64,000 bases of DNA, taken from assembly GCA_903893815.1 (NCBI GenBank), contig CAITNS010000030.1, forward strand, positions 62,001-126,000, written 5' to 3'. The notes below the pieces were generated by a model. It searched no databases, had not been told where the DNA came from, and worked only from the letters and a program-made list of their open reading frames with translations. Shown in pieces: positions 8,471 to 30,399 of the stretch. This stretch comes from an uncultured Bacteroidota bacterium (GTDB lineage: Bacteria; Bacteroidota; Bacteroidia; B-17B0; Aurantibacillaceae). How positions within the stretch are numbered: the stretch's first letter is position 1; each line of letters opens with the position of its first letter. The position numbers and the translations under genes are program-made.

Positions 8471-8486
8471 AGTACAAATTTATGAT

Positions 8487-8548
8487 TTTAGAATGTAGAA
8501 GTACGAATTTTATATGTACTAATTCGTCATTCGTAAATCTACATTCTT
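8487..8548. repeat. Palindromic intergenic repeat, family 1 (also found inside ileS)
   Basis: Nested inverted arms are visible. The outer pair is AGAATGTAGA (8490-8499) with TCTACATTCT (8538-8547); the inner pair is ACGAATT (8503-8509) with AATTCGT (8521-8527). The right arm runs into the stop codon of the TPR gene ending at 8547. Two blocks (8490-8509 and 8521-8539) closely match 29164-29183 and 29208-29226 inside ileS, at 19/20 and 16/19 identical bases. Confidence 0.75.
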
Positions 8549-10370
8549 AATTTACAATATCTCCTCTTAAATCTCTGTAGCGTTTACGAGCATCCACTAC
8601 ATAAATACTTCCAGGATATTTAGTTAATACATCTTGATATAATTGTTTTGCTTTTTCTTTATCGTTTAAATAACGCTCATACAATTCTGCCTCTTTAAAT
8701 AATGCGTCATCCCCGTATAATTCTGTTGGATAAAATTCTAAAATATTTTCGTACATCTTCGCAACTTCGGCATAACGGTTTGTGCGTTTATAGATTTCCG
8801 CTTTTTTATAATAAATATCATCGCCTAAGGTATGTTCGCTAAATATGCTGTTAATACTATCTAAACGAGCTAAGGCTTTATCGTATTGATGTTGCAATAC
8901 TAACAACTCGGCTGATGCGAATAAACTTAAAGGCGCATCATTTGTATCAACACCAATAGCATCTGTAATCACTAATGATAAATCAAGAGCGTCGTTAGCA
9001 ATGGTTTTTGTGGTAGCGCCCTTCAATACATCACATTGTGTTTTAGCCCATTTAAAATCAGACGCATAATAGCTCAATTTTGCATTTCTAAATTTTGCAC
9101 CTTGTCCAACGACTTCATATTTAAAATCTTTTTCTACTTGTGAATACAATAAAGAAGCGTCCCAAATATTACCAACCAATAAATTCATATCACCTAAATC
9201 TAATTTGATTTCGGCAACGCTATTTTTGTCAAATGTATATTGTGCAATGAGTTCTTCTAAAGATTGAATCGCATCTTGTGGCTTATCTAAATAATAGGCT
9301 TTTAGCAAAGCAGATTTTTTAATGAGAGGCAAGGTTAAATTACTAATCCCGTAGCTTTTTATGGCTGCTTCAATATTTGAATTAAGCAAAATTACATCCG
9401 CGTTATTTGGATTTGTTTGATTGGTTAATTGTAAATAATTAGCATTTAATCTTTCAATATCAGCAATATCGTAATATGGATTATCTTTTCCTTTACTCAT
9501 CACGTATTGATAACATTTTTCGGCCACCGCATAATTTTCGTTACTGATACATAATTTGGCTAATTCCATTAAACGAGTACCGTCTGTTTTTTGACGTTTG
9601 TCTAAAGCCTTATTTTGAACAAAAGATCCTTCAAAATCTTTTTGTTGATTTAATAGAAAAATTAAAAATTCAGAAAAAATAGTTCTATCCGGATTTTGCT
9701 GGATACGTCGTTGCAATTCTTGTTTTAATATTGGATTATTCAATCCACCATTTTTTTCATCGTAACCTAAAGACTGTTGTAAATTAGCTTGCGCTGTATA
9801 TAATTCACTTTCTCTAAACTCAATCGCATCTAAATACTCATTTACCATGGCTTTCAAATCGCCCTTCTTTTTATATACCTCCGCTATCTCATAAAAATAA
9901 GGATAACTAGCTGCGGTTTGTTTACGCCCCTTTTTATATACTTCAATAGCGTAATCATACAACTCTTCATCTTCAAAAGCATGAGCTAATGCAAAAATTA
10001 ACTTCTGTTCAGGAATGACTTCCTTTACCGCTTTATTATACTGATCTTTTTCTTTATCAGGGTTTCCCATCAACCTATAAACTGTTCCTAACTTTACATA
10101 TAAGTGAGTGTTGCCATCGCTGTGCTTAATTTGCCGCTTAGTAATTTTTTCAGCTGTTTTATAATCTTTGGTCTCTATTAAACATTTAAAGTAATAAGTA
10201 AAATAAGCATCTGGCTGCTTATCGTACAATTTCTCGAAATACGCAGCAGCCTTATCAAATTGCTTTTGCTCATAATATTGCATCGCTAATTTATCATCCA
10301 CGTTTTTTTGAGCTCTTACCTGAGTAAATGCGATGGTTAAAAAAATGAATATGAAAATTAATCGATTCAA
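8547..10370 (-). CDS. Large exported TPR protein
   Basis: The 607-residue protein has a signal peptide (MNRLIFIFIFLTIAFTQVRAQ) followed by TPR/helical repeats along its whole length. Examples are AMQYYEQKQFDKAAAYFEKLY near the start and KAEIYKRTNRYAEVAKMYENILEFY and YEDVLTKYP-like units near the end, where it resembles BamD/YbgF-type TPRs. It is probably periplasmic or outer-membrane-associated and may be an assembly scaffold. Upstream by 10 bp is a small lipoprotein gene, and downstream are DUF4286 and rsmA, so it likely belongs to that conserved cluster. Confidence 0.85.
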   Translation of the reverse strand: MNRLIFIFIFLTIAFTQVRAQKNVDDKLAMQYYEQKQFDKAAAYFEKLYDKQPDAYFTYYFKCLIETKDYKTAEKITKRQIKHSDGNTHLYVKLGTVYRLMGNPDKEKDQYNKAVKEVIPEQKLIFALAHAFEDEELYDYAIEVYKKGRKQTAASYPYFYEIAEVYKKKGDLKAMVNEYLDAIEFRESELYTAQANLQQSLGYDEKNGGLNNPILKQELQRRIQQNPDRTIFSEFLIFLLNQQKDFEGSFVQNKALDKRQKTDGTRLMELAKLCISNENYAVAEKCYQYVMSKGKDNPYYDIADIERLNANYLQLTNQTNPNNADVILLNSNIEAAIKSYGISNLTLPLIKKSALLKAYYLDKPQDAIQSLEELIAQYTFDKNSVAEIKLDLGDMNLLVGNIWDASLLYSQVEKDFKYEVVGQGAKFRNAKLSYYASDFKWAKTQCDVLKGATTKTIANDALDLSLVITDAIGVDTNDAPLSLFASAELLVLQHQYDKALARLDSINSIFSEHTLGDDIYYKKAEIYKRTNRYAEVAKMYENILEFYPTELYGDDALFKEAELYERYLNDKEKAKQLYQDVLTKYPGSIYVVDARKRYRDLRGDIVN

Positions 10371-26428: not shown

Positions 26429-29400
26429 TTAATTTAACTTTTCAATAGAAATAAGGGTAGATACCAATTCGTCAACTTCAACAGAATTTGCGGTGGCGGC
26501 GGACAAATTTTTTACCACTTGTAAATCTCCTGTCAGAGTTTCGGCGCAAATATAGTTCAAATTATTTTGAATGGCATTATCAAGTGCATCATTTTGTTGA
26601 ATTTTAACCAAAATCTTGTCTGTTAGGTCTAAACCACTGTCTTTACGCAAGTTTTGGATACGATTCACCAATTCTCTGGCTAAACCTTCCTCTTTTAAAG
26701 AATCTGATAAAGTCACATCCAACGCAACAGTTATTTGTCCGCTATTAGCTACTTTCCATCCTGGAATATCTACTGGAATAATTTCAACATCTTCTAATTC
26801 CAACAAAATCTCTTCACCTTCTAAATTCATCTTAAACTGACCAGTTTTTTCAATTCCAGCAATAATTAAGTCGCCATTATCATTTGCATAAGCCTGAACG
26901 GTTTTCATGTGTTTACCACATTTTTTACCTAAAGTTTTAAAATTCAACTTCAAATTCTTCACAATATGTGCTTCTTCTTCTGTCACAAATTCTAACTCTT
27001 TCACATTAACTTCTGCCAAAATGATCTCTTTAACAGCTTGAATATGCTGTCTGAATTCATTATCTAAAATTGGAATACGAATTTTTTGCAATGGCTGACG
27101 AACCCTTAAATTTTCTTTCTTACGAATAGATAAAATCATCGAAGAAATTTTTTGCGCCATTTCCATTCGTTTTTCTAAACTAATATCAATAATGCTTAAA
27201 TTAACTTTTGGATAATTCGTTAAATGCACAGAGTTAACGTCACCTGAAACGTCGTTTAAATTTTGATATAACCAATCTGCAAAGAATGGTGCTATTGGAC
27301 TCATCAATTGCGACAAGGTATTTAAACATTCGAATAATGTTTCGTAAGCTGCTTTTTTATCGTCACTCATATCGCCTTTCCAAAAACGACGACGAGATAA
27401 ACGAATGTACCAGTTACTTAAATGTTCATCTACAAATTCCTCAATATAACGAGCTGCTTTATGAGGTTCAAATGTTTCGTATTGTTCTGTGACATCTTTT
27501 ACTAATGAATTTAATTTTGATAAAATCCATCTATCAAGCTCCGAACGATTACTAACGTTTATCGTATTGTTTAAATCAACCACGAAGTTATCGACGTTTG
27601 CATATAAAGCAAAGAATCCATAGGTATTATAAAGCGTTCCAAATAATTTACGTTGCACTTCTCCAATTCCTTCAACATCAAATTTTAAATTATCCCATGG
27701 AGCAGCATTTGCTATCATGTACCAACGAGTGGCGTCAGCACCATATTTTTCAATAGTTTCGAACGGATCAACGGCGTTACCTAAACGCTTACTCATTTTG
27801 TTTCCGTTTTTATCTAATACTAATCCGTTAGATACTACATTTTTGTATGCTACTGAATCGAAATTCATCGTTGCAATAGCATGTAAAGTAAAGAACCAAC
27901 CACGAGTTTGATCAACGCCTTCGGCAATAAAATCAGCTGGGTAATATTTTTTATCGTCAATTAATTCTTTGTTCTCAAATGGATAATGTACTTGCGCATA
28001 AGGCATAGCACCCGAATCGAACCACACATCAATTAAATCCGGCTCGCGGAATAATTTTTTTCCGTTCTTTTCTAATACGATATTATCAGCATAAGGTTTG
28101 TGTAAATCAAAGGTGTCGTAATTTTCTGCCGTAAAGTTTCCTGGAACAAATTTACCTAATGGATTTTCTGTCATGAATCCTTTAGCGATTGAATTATCAA
28201 TTTGATTTTTTAATTCTTCGGCACTTCCAATTACAATTTGCTCAGAGCTATCTTCGCTTGTCCAGATAGGAATTGGAATACCCCAAAAGCGAGAACGAGA
28301 TAAATTCCAATCATTTAAGTTTTCTAACCAATTACCAAAACGGCCAGTACCAGTAGCTTCTGGCTTCCAGTTAATGGTTTTGTTTAATTCAATCATACGG
28401 TCTTTAGCTGCCGTTGATTTAATAAACCATGAGTCTAATGGGTAATATAAAACGGGTTTGTCAGTTCTCCAACAGTGAGGATAACTATGTTCGTAGGTCT
28501 CTTTCTTAAATAATTTTCCTTCTTCTTGTAATTTTAAAACAATACGTTCATCAACACTCAAATAAGCTTTTAATTCTTTGATCTTTCCTGTTGCTTCTAA
28601 AATTTGTTTTTGTTTTTCAAACTCAACTTGTTTTTCAGCATCTGTATGATACGCTTCTTTTACGTATTCTTCGCCATACAAAAATGTATCGTCTTTTATT
28701 TCAGGCAAAAAACGACCGCGTTTATCAACTAAAGTTAATGAACCTATTCCGTTTTGTTTAGCTACTCTAAAGTCATCTGCACCAAAGCTTGGCGCAATAT
28801 GCACAATACCAGTACCATCAGTTGTCGTTACGAAATCACCAACAATTACTTTAAAGGCATCTCCATCTGTTGGTTGAGTGAATGGTAATAATTGTTCGTA
28901 GGAGATTCCTTCTAAATCTGAACCTTTGCAATGATTCACAATTTTAAAAGGAATATTTTTGTCGCCAACTTTATAATCTTCAAATTTTAAATCCTTATGT
29001 TTTTCTGAAAAATATTTGTTGACTAAATCTTTTGCTAATACAACTGTTTGAGGAGCTCCGCTAAATGGATTAAAACTTTCAACAAATACATAATCAATAT
29101 CTTTTCCAACCGCTAATGCAGTATTTGAAGGCAAAGTCCAAGGTGTAGTTGTCCAAGCTAAAAAGAATGTAGAATTACGAATTACGATTTCCGAATTCGG
29201 TATTCTAAATTCGTCGCTCGTCAATCGGAATTGAACTGTCGCTGTCCTATCCTTTACATCTCTATAACAACCAGGTTGATTTAACTCGTGAGAAGATAAA
29301 CCCGTACCTGCTGCCGGCGAGTATGGCTGAATAGTAAAACCTTTGTATAATAAATTTTTGTTATTTAAATTTTGCAATAACCACCAAACGCTTTCAATAT

Positions 29401-29881
29401 ACTTATTATCATATGTAATGTAAGGGTCTTTCATATCAACCCAATAGCCCATCTTGGCTGTTACATCTTCCCACTTGTCGGTATATTTCATTACTTCCTT
29501 ACGACAAGCTTTGTTGTAATCTTCAACCGAAATAAATTTTTTACTGTTAGGATTTCCAATATCTTCTTTTGTAATTCCTAATGATTTTTCTACTCCAAGT
29601 TCAATAGGCAAACCGTGAGTATCCCAACCTGCTTTACGTTTAACTTGAAAACCTTGCAAAGTTTTGTAACGACAAAAAATATCTTTAATCGTACGTGCCA
29701 TGACATGGTGAATGCCTGGCATACCATTAGCACTTGGCGGTCCTTCGTAAAACACCCAAGGTGTTTTGCCTTCGCGTATAGAGATAGATTTTCCAAAAGT
29801 GTCTTTTTCTTTCCAATAATCTAAAATGTCTTTACTTATTTGTGATAAGTTGAGTTGGTTGTATGTAGGGTACTTTTTCAT
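26429..29881 (-). CDS. ileS: Isoleucyl-tRNA synthetase, with an in-frame repeat-derived insertion
   Basis: The 1150-residue class I aminoacyl-tRNA synthetase has a HIGH-type site in PPSANGMPGIHH, then RKAGWDTHGLPIEL, the editing domain start LAWTTTPWTLPSNTALAVG, the KMSKR loop NKMSKRLGN, and the C-terminal anticodon-binding and zinc-like region. It charges tRNA-Ile. Residues ~221-238 (TSDEFRIPNSEIVIRNST) are encoded by DNA matching a palindromic intergenic repeat at 8487-8548, placed in a loop just before the editing domain motif. It is otherwise full length and in frame. It heads the operon with the DksA-like gene. Confidence 0.96.
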   Translation of the reverse strand: MKKYPTYNQLNLSQISKDILDYWKEKDTFGKSISIREGKTPWVFYEGPPSANGMPGIHHVMARTIKDIFCRYKTLQGFQVKRKAGWDTHGLPIELGVEKSLGITKEDIGNPNSKKFISVEDYNKACRKEVMKYTDKWEDVTAKMGYWVDMKDPYITYDNKYIESVWWLLQNLNNKNLLYKGFTIQPYSPAAGTGLSSHELNQPGCYRDVKDRTATVQFRLTSDEFRIPNSEIVIRNSTFFLAWTTTPWTLPSNTALAVGKDIDYVFVESFNPFSGAPQTVVLAKDLVNKYFSEKHKDLKFEDYKVGDKNIPFKIVNHCKGSDLEGISYEQLLPFTQPTDGDAFKVIVGDFVTTTDGTGIVHIAPSFGADDFRVAKQNGIGSLTLVDKRGRFLPEIKDDTFLYGEEYVKEAYHTDAEKQVEFEKQKQILEATGKIKELKAYLSVDERIVLKLQEEGKLFKKETYEHSYPHCWRTDKPVLYYPLDSWFIKSTAAKDRMIELNKTINWKPEATGTGRFGNWLENLNDWNLSRSRFWGIPIPIWTSEDSSEQIVIGSAEELKNQIDNSIAKGFMTENPLGKFVPGNFTAENYDTFDLHKPYADNIVLEKNGKKLFREPDLIDVWFDSGAMPYAQVHYPFENKELIDDKKYYPADFIAEGVDQTRGWFFTLHAIATMNFDSVAYKNVVSNGLVLDKNGNKMSKRLGNAVDPFETIEKYGADATRWYMIANAAPWDNLKFDVEGIGEVQRKLFGTLYNTYGFFALYANVDNFVVDLNNTINVSNRSELDRWILSKLNSLVKDVTEQYETFEPHKAARYIEEFVDEHLSNWYIRLSRRRFWKGDMSDDKKAAYETLFECLNTLSQLMSPIAPFFADWLYQNLNDVSGDVNSVHLTNYPKVNLSIIDISLEKRMEMAQKISSMILSIRKKENLRVRQPLQKIRIPILDNEFRQHIQAVKEIILAEVNVKELEFVTEEEAHIVKNLKLNFKTLGKKCGKHMKTVQAYANDNGDLIIAGIEKTGQFKMNLEGEEILLELEDVEIIPVDIPGWKVANSGQITVALDVTLSDSLKEEGLARELVNRIQNLRKDSGLDLTDKILVKIQQNDALDNAIQNNLNYICAETLTGDLQVVKNLSAATANSVEVDELVSTLISIEKLN
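29164..29226. repeat. Palindromic repeat family 1 embedded in the ileS coding sequence
   Basis: Blocks 29164-29183 (AGAATGTAGAATTACGAATT) and 29208-29226 match 8490-8509 and 8521-8539 at 19/20 and 16/19 bases. The middle contains the perfect palindrome CCGAATTCGG (29191-29200). The stretch is translated in frame as about 18 residues of ileS. Confidence 0.7.
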
Positions 29882-29893
29882 TGTTAGTTTTAG

Positions 29894-30042
29894 TTTAACC
29901 GCAAAGAGCGCAATGGTTTAGCAAAGGGCGCAAAGGGTTGTTGCTTAATAAATTAAGGGTAGCGAAGGTACAAAAAAATGGTTTAACAACAAAAGATAGA
30001 ATTACTCTGCGAAATTGCGCCTACTTCGTTTCTCTGTGGTTA
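29894..30042. repeat. Intergenic repeat with CGCAAAG-type words, between the globin gene and ileS
   Basis: The left half reads AACCGCAAAGAGCGCAATGG and GCAAAGGGCGCAAAGGG. The right half reads as its imperfect reverse complement (TGCGAAATTGCGCC, TTTCTCTGTGGTTA). The outer arms TTTAACCGCAAAGA and TCTCTGTGGTTA pair imperfectly. The right arm includes the stop codon of the globin gene. The words resemble intergenic repeats I know from Bacteroidota. Confidence 0.5.
29963..29993 (-). promoter_or_regulatory. Candidate ileS promoter inside the repeat region
   Basis: On the minus strand TTTG (29990-29993) and TACCTTCG (29963-29970) are separated by 19 nt; the second element is one base from TAnnTTTG. 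It would start transcription about 75 bp upstream of the ileS ATG. Confidence 0.35.
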
Positions 30043-30399
30043 GATTTTACCCATTTGTTTCATTTTGCTTTCAAATGAAAAAGCAATGGTTTTTGCACGA
30101 AAAATGGCTTTTTGAGCATTTTCTCCTTCGAATAACGCATTTACTGATTTTTCAAAGGCATTTAACCAGATTTCAAAATGTTCTGCTTTTAAGGGTAAAT
30201 TAACGTGTTTATCAAATACATTGGTTGTATAACCTTCTTTATCCAACAATACAAATTCCCAAAAAGCAATCATATGAGGCATATGTTTTTCGAAATCCAC
30301 ATACTCAAAAATGGGTTTTACCTCTTCATTTAAAAGTAAATTGGAGTAAAAAGTCTTTACTAAAAGTTCTACGTCGGCTGAGTTGGAGATGTCTTGCAT
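30040..30399 (-). CDS. Group III truncated haemoglobin
   Basis: The 119-residue protein has the trHb group III pattern: ELLVKTFYSNLLLNEEVKPIF, MIAFWEFVLL, and HVNLPLKAEHFEIWLNAF, in which His74 is the probable haem-proximal ligand. Its length is typical of 2-on-2 globins. The biological ligand (O2, NO or a redox partner) cannot be told from sequence. It lies 3 bp downstream of the methyltransferase gene, so the two are probably translated from one mRNA that is divergent from the ammonia-lyase operon. Confidence 0.88.
   Translation of the reverse strand: MQDISNSADVELLVKTFYSNLLLNEEVKPIFEYVDFEKHMPHMIAFWEFVLLDKEGYTTNVFDKHVNLPLKAEHFEIWLNAFEKSVNALFEGENAQKAIFRAKTIAFSFESKMKQMGKI

Follow-up and report, generated by a model that had tools for sequence, protein, structure and literature searches.

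What is a palindrome-like array of short units doing within the gene of an essential tRNA synthetase, and how did it come to be there? The question is raised by ileS of an uncultured member of the Bacteroidota, read here in a stretch of 64,000 nucleotides (the window). A preliminary description of the window had taken a segment of this gene for a palindromic intergenic repeat inserted in frame, in the manner of the RPE-type elements known from Rickettsia. Our analyses confirmed that the array-like tract in ileS is real, and this first observation is upheld; the interpretation built on it was, as a whole, partly supported. Features of the window are collected in Table 1.

Table 1. Positions of the ileS tract and associated features within the window
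Feature	Position	Strand	Remarks
Intergenic family member, near-palindrome	8487..8548	.	about 62 nt; final 2 nt overlap open frame 8547-10370
ileS, isoleucyl-tRNA synthetase	26429-29881	minus	1150 aa, intact frame
In-frame heptad array, ileS residues 219-238	29164..29230	minus	R2 profile, lag 7; no counterpart in 19 other genus genomes
CCGAATTCGG, perfect 10-nt palindrome near array centre	29191..29200	.	read from sequence

The ileS tract, its period, and its turn

The ileS product matched solved isoleucine-tRNA ligases (best E of 7.6e-244), and the reading frame was open through the whole tract. About 63 nt long, the tract comprises about nine degenerate 7-bp units that together form a rough palindrome: the units are unlike one another, the two halves are inverted, and no run of perfect same-direction copies is present. 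The sequence of residues 221-238 is TSDEFRIPNSEIVIRNST, and the perfect palindrome previously noted inside the segment was indeed seen there (Table 1).

Base identity within the tract was 0.67 at lag 7, 0.59 at lag 14, and at most 0.38 at the other lags from 2 to 15. Eight further elements, six in the genome that carries the window (G000) and one each in the congeners G019 and G003, also peaked at lags 7 and 14, and the ileS tract ranked first for lag 7 among the windows of an 864-kb sample that included 140 kb selected for its blast hits. When synonymous codons were shuffled within the gene, with the amino acids fixed, the best lag-7 identity of the turn averaged 0.50 over the shuffles against 0.74 in the real gene, a value that 0/200 of them reached. 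The real value was likewise reached by 0/200 shuffles each in G008, G014, and G001 and by 3/200 in G010, while the period of the G011 turn was not beyond synonymous shuffles (26/200 reached it). Because synonymous shuffling abolishes the period, its cause lies in the DNA and not in the protein for most of the genes tested. There was no clear lag-7 excess in coding DNA overall (7 windows versus 1-7 at other lags), and no period of 7 was seen when averaged over intergenic DNA.

The tract had been proposed to sit in a tolerant loop of the enzyme, and this placement was borne out. In a predicted model of truncated IleS (mean pLDDT 69.5, with the catalytic part poor), it is flanked by strands 214-220 and 237-244, short strands pair at 225-226 and 233-234, and the local pLDDT is 82-88, so that it occupies a predicted beta-hairpin turn of the editing domain. 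The same turn was the largest internal indel site of an 18-genome alignment, and a solved isoleucine-tRNA ligase (8c8w) has 12 residues fewer there in the alignment. Folded as DNA, the turn was the most hairpin-prone neighbourhood of its gene (0/263 others were as low); the tract alone folded only modestly beyond shuffles (z -1.65, 11/200).

The same turn across genomes

An IleS match was found in 41/41 genomes searched, with 30 loci returned, and the turn could be read in all 20 genomes of the genus, G000 included. The segment was absent from 19/19 of the others, bearing out the expectation that some 18 residues would be missing in relatives. The five closest congeners (G019, G003, G011, G004, and G015), with 89-95% nucleotide identity to the G000 gene outside the loop, share a compact, KVKDSKFKVNGDLYI-type turn that is 7 codons shorter. 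The closest relative is G019, at 94.8% identity outside the loop, and trees built without the loop placed G000 as its sister with a support of 0.98 in the protein tree and likewise in the tree of codon positions 1+2; the order of the remaining compact-turn species had weak support. These comparisons show the G000 tract to be derived relative to its close congeners. The tract has little in common with the compact turn of G019 despite flanks that are 94.8% identical, and the change is no clean insertion: the ancestral turn was rewritten and came out a net 21 nt longer. Of the in-frame insert first proposed, then, the derived state and the frame stand, whereas the ancestral turn was rewritten and blastn found no near-identical donor in the assembly. 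Change of loop length in 21-nt steps holds for G000 and not for the other congeners.

The period recurs at this position in other genomes. Among 109 of 110 ileS genes (one with N was left out), the turn was the unique lag-7 maximum of its gene in 15 and the lag-14 maximum in 9, and for the 18 genes tested from the genus the figures were 7 and 8; nine control lags gave 0-2 genes each, with about 0.84 expected by chance. Most of the eight lag-7 cases outside the genus were marginal. A second enzyme gene behaved similarly: a hairpin turn of asnB was the unique lag-7 maximum in 6 of the 12 loci read, and also at lag 14, with 0-1 at six control lags (the turn was readable in 12/19 loci for the lag survey and in 11/19 for comparison of units). 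The asnB turn of G000 (G000:C18:43019-43075; L279) is written in the heptads GAATTTC GAATTAC GAATTCA; among congeners, G001 has ATTCAAC repeats, and G003, G015, G016, and G004 have a short plain turn.

Hairpin energy across the 110 ileS genes showed no general shift (Fisher p 0.75 for all and 0.08 for the 18 genus genes), and the loop was the most stable neighbourhood in 4/110 (L038, L044, L105, and L119). Perfect inverted repeats in the ileS loop with arms of 7, 8, and 9 nt numbered 22, 5, and 3, versus codon-shuffle means of 10.7, 5.3, and 1.0: an excess at 7 nt, perhaps one at 9 nt, and none at 8 nt.

What occupies the turn differs among genomes. That of G008 is a 63-nt near-palindrome (self match 88%, fold z -4.08), for which the rest of the G008 genome offered no match better than E 0.08. 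That of G016 carries a CCCCCTTTGAAGGGGG sequence without a 7-nt period, which has matches in G000, G003, G008, and G019 and elsewhere in G016; in G001 and G010 the best hits reached only E 0.31 and 0.95, respectively. Outside the genus, the turn of an uncultured Flavobacteriaceae (L105) holds a G+C-rich palindrome that matches 13 more places in that genome, and that of Flavobacterium ichthyis (L119) holds a palindrome with two further genome matches. Several kinds of repeats therefore share the same ileS turn (G016, L105, and L119), and the presence of other palindromic repeats there makes the site a recurrent one. The shared feature is a degenerate 7-nt period, not one fixed element, and other congeners show it with other units. 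The idea of a single palindromic repeat element thus survives in part: the tract is repeat-related and has intergenic relatives, but its period is degenerate, its units vary, and other repeats lie in the same turn.

Intergenic relatives and other repeats

The preliminary description had rested on two blocks of likeness between the ileS segment and an intergenic element of the window (Table 1), which folds as DNA with a z of -4.65 and has a lag-7 identity of 0.54. Whole-genome blastn showed likeness in both arms, with a direct match of 19/20 (E 0.045) and an inverted match of 25/28 (E 9.9e-4). In 864 kb of G000 sequence, the ileS tract was the top non-self match of the element (Smith-Waterman 52, runner-up 49), compared with top scores of 41.5-49 for six control elements (one reversed, five shuffled). 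An intergenic blast match as good as that of the ileS pair was found for 2/250 random coding windows, one of them a true 147-bit repeat. Taken alone, the pair is only modestly above chance, and pairwise likeness was rejected as proof: at E <= 0.01, reversed intergenic sequence gave 162 coding matches versus 234 from the real sequence, and 2/250 decoys equalled ileS. Clusters of words of the ATTACGA type were also tried and rejected, since the ileS tract (26 bases covered) scored no better than clusters arising by chance, of which each of five 724-kb Markov controls contained 2-7. No near-identical donor for the tract was found in the assembly by blastn, the best copy in G000 being 28 nt at 89% and the longest 61 nt at 72%.

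At the site of the intergenic element, both flanks were readable in 11 genomes; the gap between them is 75 nt in G000, 9 nt in G003, and 12 nt in G004, and the latter two are empty sites for this copy. No match for the site was found in G019. The counterparts of the gap (8471-8546) in G008 and G016 (L198 and L201) hold, as judged by eye, a different palindrome-like sequence, CTTCGAGTA ... CACTCGAAC. Rfam at gathering thresholds returned no known structured RNA anywhere in the window.

Profile searches reached further than pairs. A first profile, R1, was built from seven members, ileS and asnB included, with a mean column identity of 48%. With 150 candidates scored per genome, it found 15 places in G000 at E <= 1e-3, 8 of them outside the training set. 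Two of the 15 are in frame in enzyme genes (ileS and asnB, both training members) and the remaining 13 lie between genes or at their edges, one of them (C41:26013) inside a 79-aa open frame taken as spurious. At E <= 1 and on both strands, again among 150 candidates scored per genome, matches numbered at least 52 in G000, 31 in G019, 16 in G003, 22 in G004, and 1 in G005. A second profile, R2, was built without ileS and asnB, though its members were partly picked via an ileS query. In 744 kb it recovered the ileS tract on both strands (29167-29230 minus, E 2.3e-8; 29164-29222 plus, E 2.8e-8) as well as asnB (E 2.6e-5). Over 18 ileS loci of the genus, it also found the turn of G010 (E 2.2e-6 and 4.7e-5) and had no match at E <= 1 in the other 16. 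Because R2 members came partly from an ileS query, the same member-picking was repeated for decoys: ileS scored 32.3 bits versus at most 16.3 in 150 decoys, in a sample that included stretches picked for ileS hits. In a 724-kb sample without those stretches, which left one close member, ileS was not separated, and 2, 21, and 10 of 250 decoys reached it with 1, 3, and 5 members, respectively. Firmer backing for the ileS tract than the pairwise match gives comes from the family profile, the 7-nt period, and the contrast with close congeners.

Other repeats were seen in G000. An FAD-dependent oxidoreductase gene (G000:C43:15750-17012; L259) carries at about codons 257-282 an in-frame dispersed element, HPELVSGSHEMLKQVQHDV, that is also present in G015 and G011; the turn was readable in 13/20 loci, 10 of which lack the element and have a short turn instead. 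Directly upstream of the ileS start, at 29898-30048 of the window, lies an inverted repeat of the GCAAAG/CTTTGC type (TTAACCGCAAAG ... TCTCTGTGGTTA), similar pieces of which occur at C43:246126-246222 and at the 5' end of the ORF C40:112515-113348. At G000:C41:59851-60888, a signal-peptide-like N-terminus, FLILNSAFLIS, is encoded by ATTCTTAATTCTTAATTCTGCATTCTTAATT, a lag-7 window, and at G000:C43:198183-198914 the C-terminus of what we take to be a HisA-like protein is encoded by a weak family match (R1 E 0.06). Intergenic lag-7 windows on C43, C53, C40, and the window itself have other units (ATAACTT, AACTCAT, and TAAGATT types), and two 9-mers, CCCGATAGC and AGCTATCGG, show an intergenic enrichment of about 20-fold (each 12 intergenic versus 1 coding). 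Varied units and enriched 9-mers point to what may be several dispersed families in this genome.

Origin of the tract and comparison with known systems

We think it probable that slippage or template switching, a process that we infer, brings heptad arrays into hairpin turns able to accommodate them, and that in-frame outcomes survive. The ileS tract would belong to a family of heptad arrays that lie mostly between genes, in G000 and in congeners. After the split from the sister species, such an array would have taken the place of the ancestral beta-hairpin turn of IleS, adding exactly 7 codons and keeping the frame. Replication errors that keep to a 7-nt register, through slippage combined with hairpin template switching, may both generate these arrays and copy them; selection would retain in-frame outcomes in turns that tolerate them. 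This account builds on what the analyses showed: a derived state, a profile relation, a 7-nt period dependent on synonymous choices, a location in a turn of the model, and recurrence in the turn of congeners and in AsnB. More tentatively, and with a good deal of doubt, we suggest that a replication process in a 7-nt register keeps making and remodelling degenerate palindromic heptad arrays in this genus, such that hairpin turns of enzymes such as IleS and AsnB would owe part of their sequence to the replication machinery instead of point mutation.

A transposase might instead have copied and pasted a discrete mobile palindromic element (a MITE, a REPIN, or an RPE-like element) that landed in frame by chance and was then trimmed. 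In favor of this reading are the empty sites of the intergenic copy in G003 and G004, the clear in-frame dispersed element of the G000 oxidoreductase gene that relatives lack, and the dispersed palindromes in the ileS turn of G016 and the L105 Flavobacteriaceae genome. We nevertheless hold this origin unlikely for the ileS tract, which took the place of host codons rather than adding to them and has no copy in G000 near full-length similarity; the lack of a close donor speaks against plain transposition. Co-occurrence with a Y1/RAYT transposase is a feature of REP/REPIN systems, and the Y1 transposase domain PF01797 was found in 3/6 genomes (4 matches in G000, 3 in G003, and 4 in G008) and not in G004, G019, or G016, although G004 and G019 (the latter 76% complete) both have family matches.

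Growth in place, in which slippage and snap-back synthesis extend the old turn, would require no donor, the likeness to intergenic arrays being convergence on the same units. The compact turns of G019, G003, G011, and G004 are already partly periodic, with lag-7 identities of 0.45-0.53, and the turn of G008 has no good match elsewhere in its genome. By eye, the left arm in G008 and G001 is still like the compact-turn codons, so for these two growth in place looks likelier. For the G000 tract, in contrast, we consider it quite improbable: the tract is little like the compact turn of G019 despite nearly identical flanks, and it matches the intergenic family by the R2 profile. Least probable is an ordinary hypervariable surface loop in an A+T-rich gene with a chance likeness to repeats, for although the turn varies among the IleS proteins read and the pairwise likeness to the intergenic element is modest, control lags gave 0-2 genes against 15/109 at lag 7, no synonymous shuffle reached the turn of G000, the tract came first for lag 7 in 864 kb, and none of 263 other neighbourhoods of the gene was as hairpin-prone.

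The tract resembles several known systems in part. Like heptanucleotide simple sequence repeats, the arrays have a 7-nt unit and period, and the STRR heptads of cyanobacteria are a further likeness; unlike those heptanucleotide repeats, which are direct and lie mostly between genes, they have degenerate units and inverted halves and sit in frame in enzyme turns. For heptanucleotide repeats, slippage of the polymerase in a 7-nt register has been proposed (Mrazek et al. 2007, as told in PMC4679880), and TAACTGA arrays are described from five Bacteroidetes (PMC4679880). Template switching has been invoked to explain inverted repeats in protein-coding sequence (PMC8604942), and coding inverted repeats occur in mitochondria of Nematomorpha (PMC6649704); these cases come from yeast and animal mitochondria, and the portions of the two accounts used here mention no 7-nt period.

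REPs are described as palindromes of 20-40 bp, tagged by GTAG or CGTC and mostly intergenic, with some in ORFs such as uvrA and polymerase genes, and CGTC repeats have been reported from Bacteroidetes among other phyla (PMC3733652). The arrays resemble them as short palindromic repeats that are mostly intergenic and in some cases within ORFs, and the letters CGTC occur, by eye, within the heptads of several family members; the tract differs in its length of about 63 nt and its heptad period. RPEs, in turn, are palindrome-like and lie in frame inside genes for functional proteins as well as between genes (PMC10969869, PMC3733652), and they are given as about 150 bp long, with a conserved peptide and ten families (PMC10969869). 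The ileS tract is likewise a palindrome-like array in frame in the ORF of a functional protein, with relatives between genes, and to this extent the proposed RPE-type likeness holds. Its length and that of the intergenic element (about 63 and 62 nt, against about 150 bp) and the conserved peptide families do not agree; the arrays are degenerate (mean column identity 48%), have a 7-nt period and no full-length close copy, and reside in a Bacteroidota host. The likeness to RPEs, judged from published descriptions of them, is one of behavior.

A search of titles and abstract openings, covering few subscription journals, returned no report of palindromes built from heptads, either in IleS or in frame in proteins of Bacteroidota. 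With close species that have a compact turn, the entry of repeats into proteins can be studied in a natural series, and any genome can be scanned for the signature, a 7-nt period that depends on synonymous choices. Palindromic elements within genes of Rickettsia and REPs in ORFs of other bacteria are known (PMC10969869, PMC3733652); what differs here is a heptad-built class in an essential synthetase of the Bacteroidota, with a period of 7 shared by that turn in several congeners and by a further enzyme.
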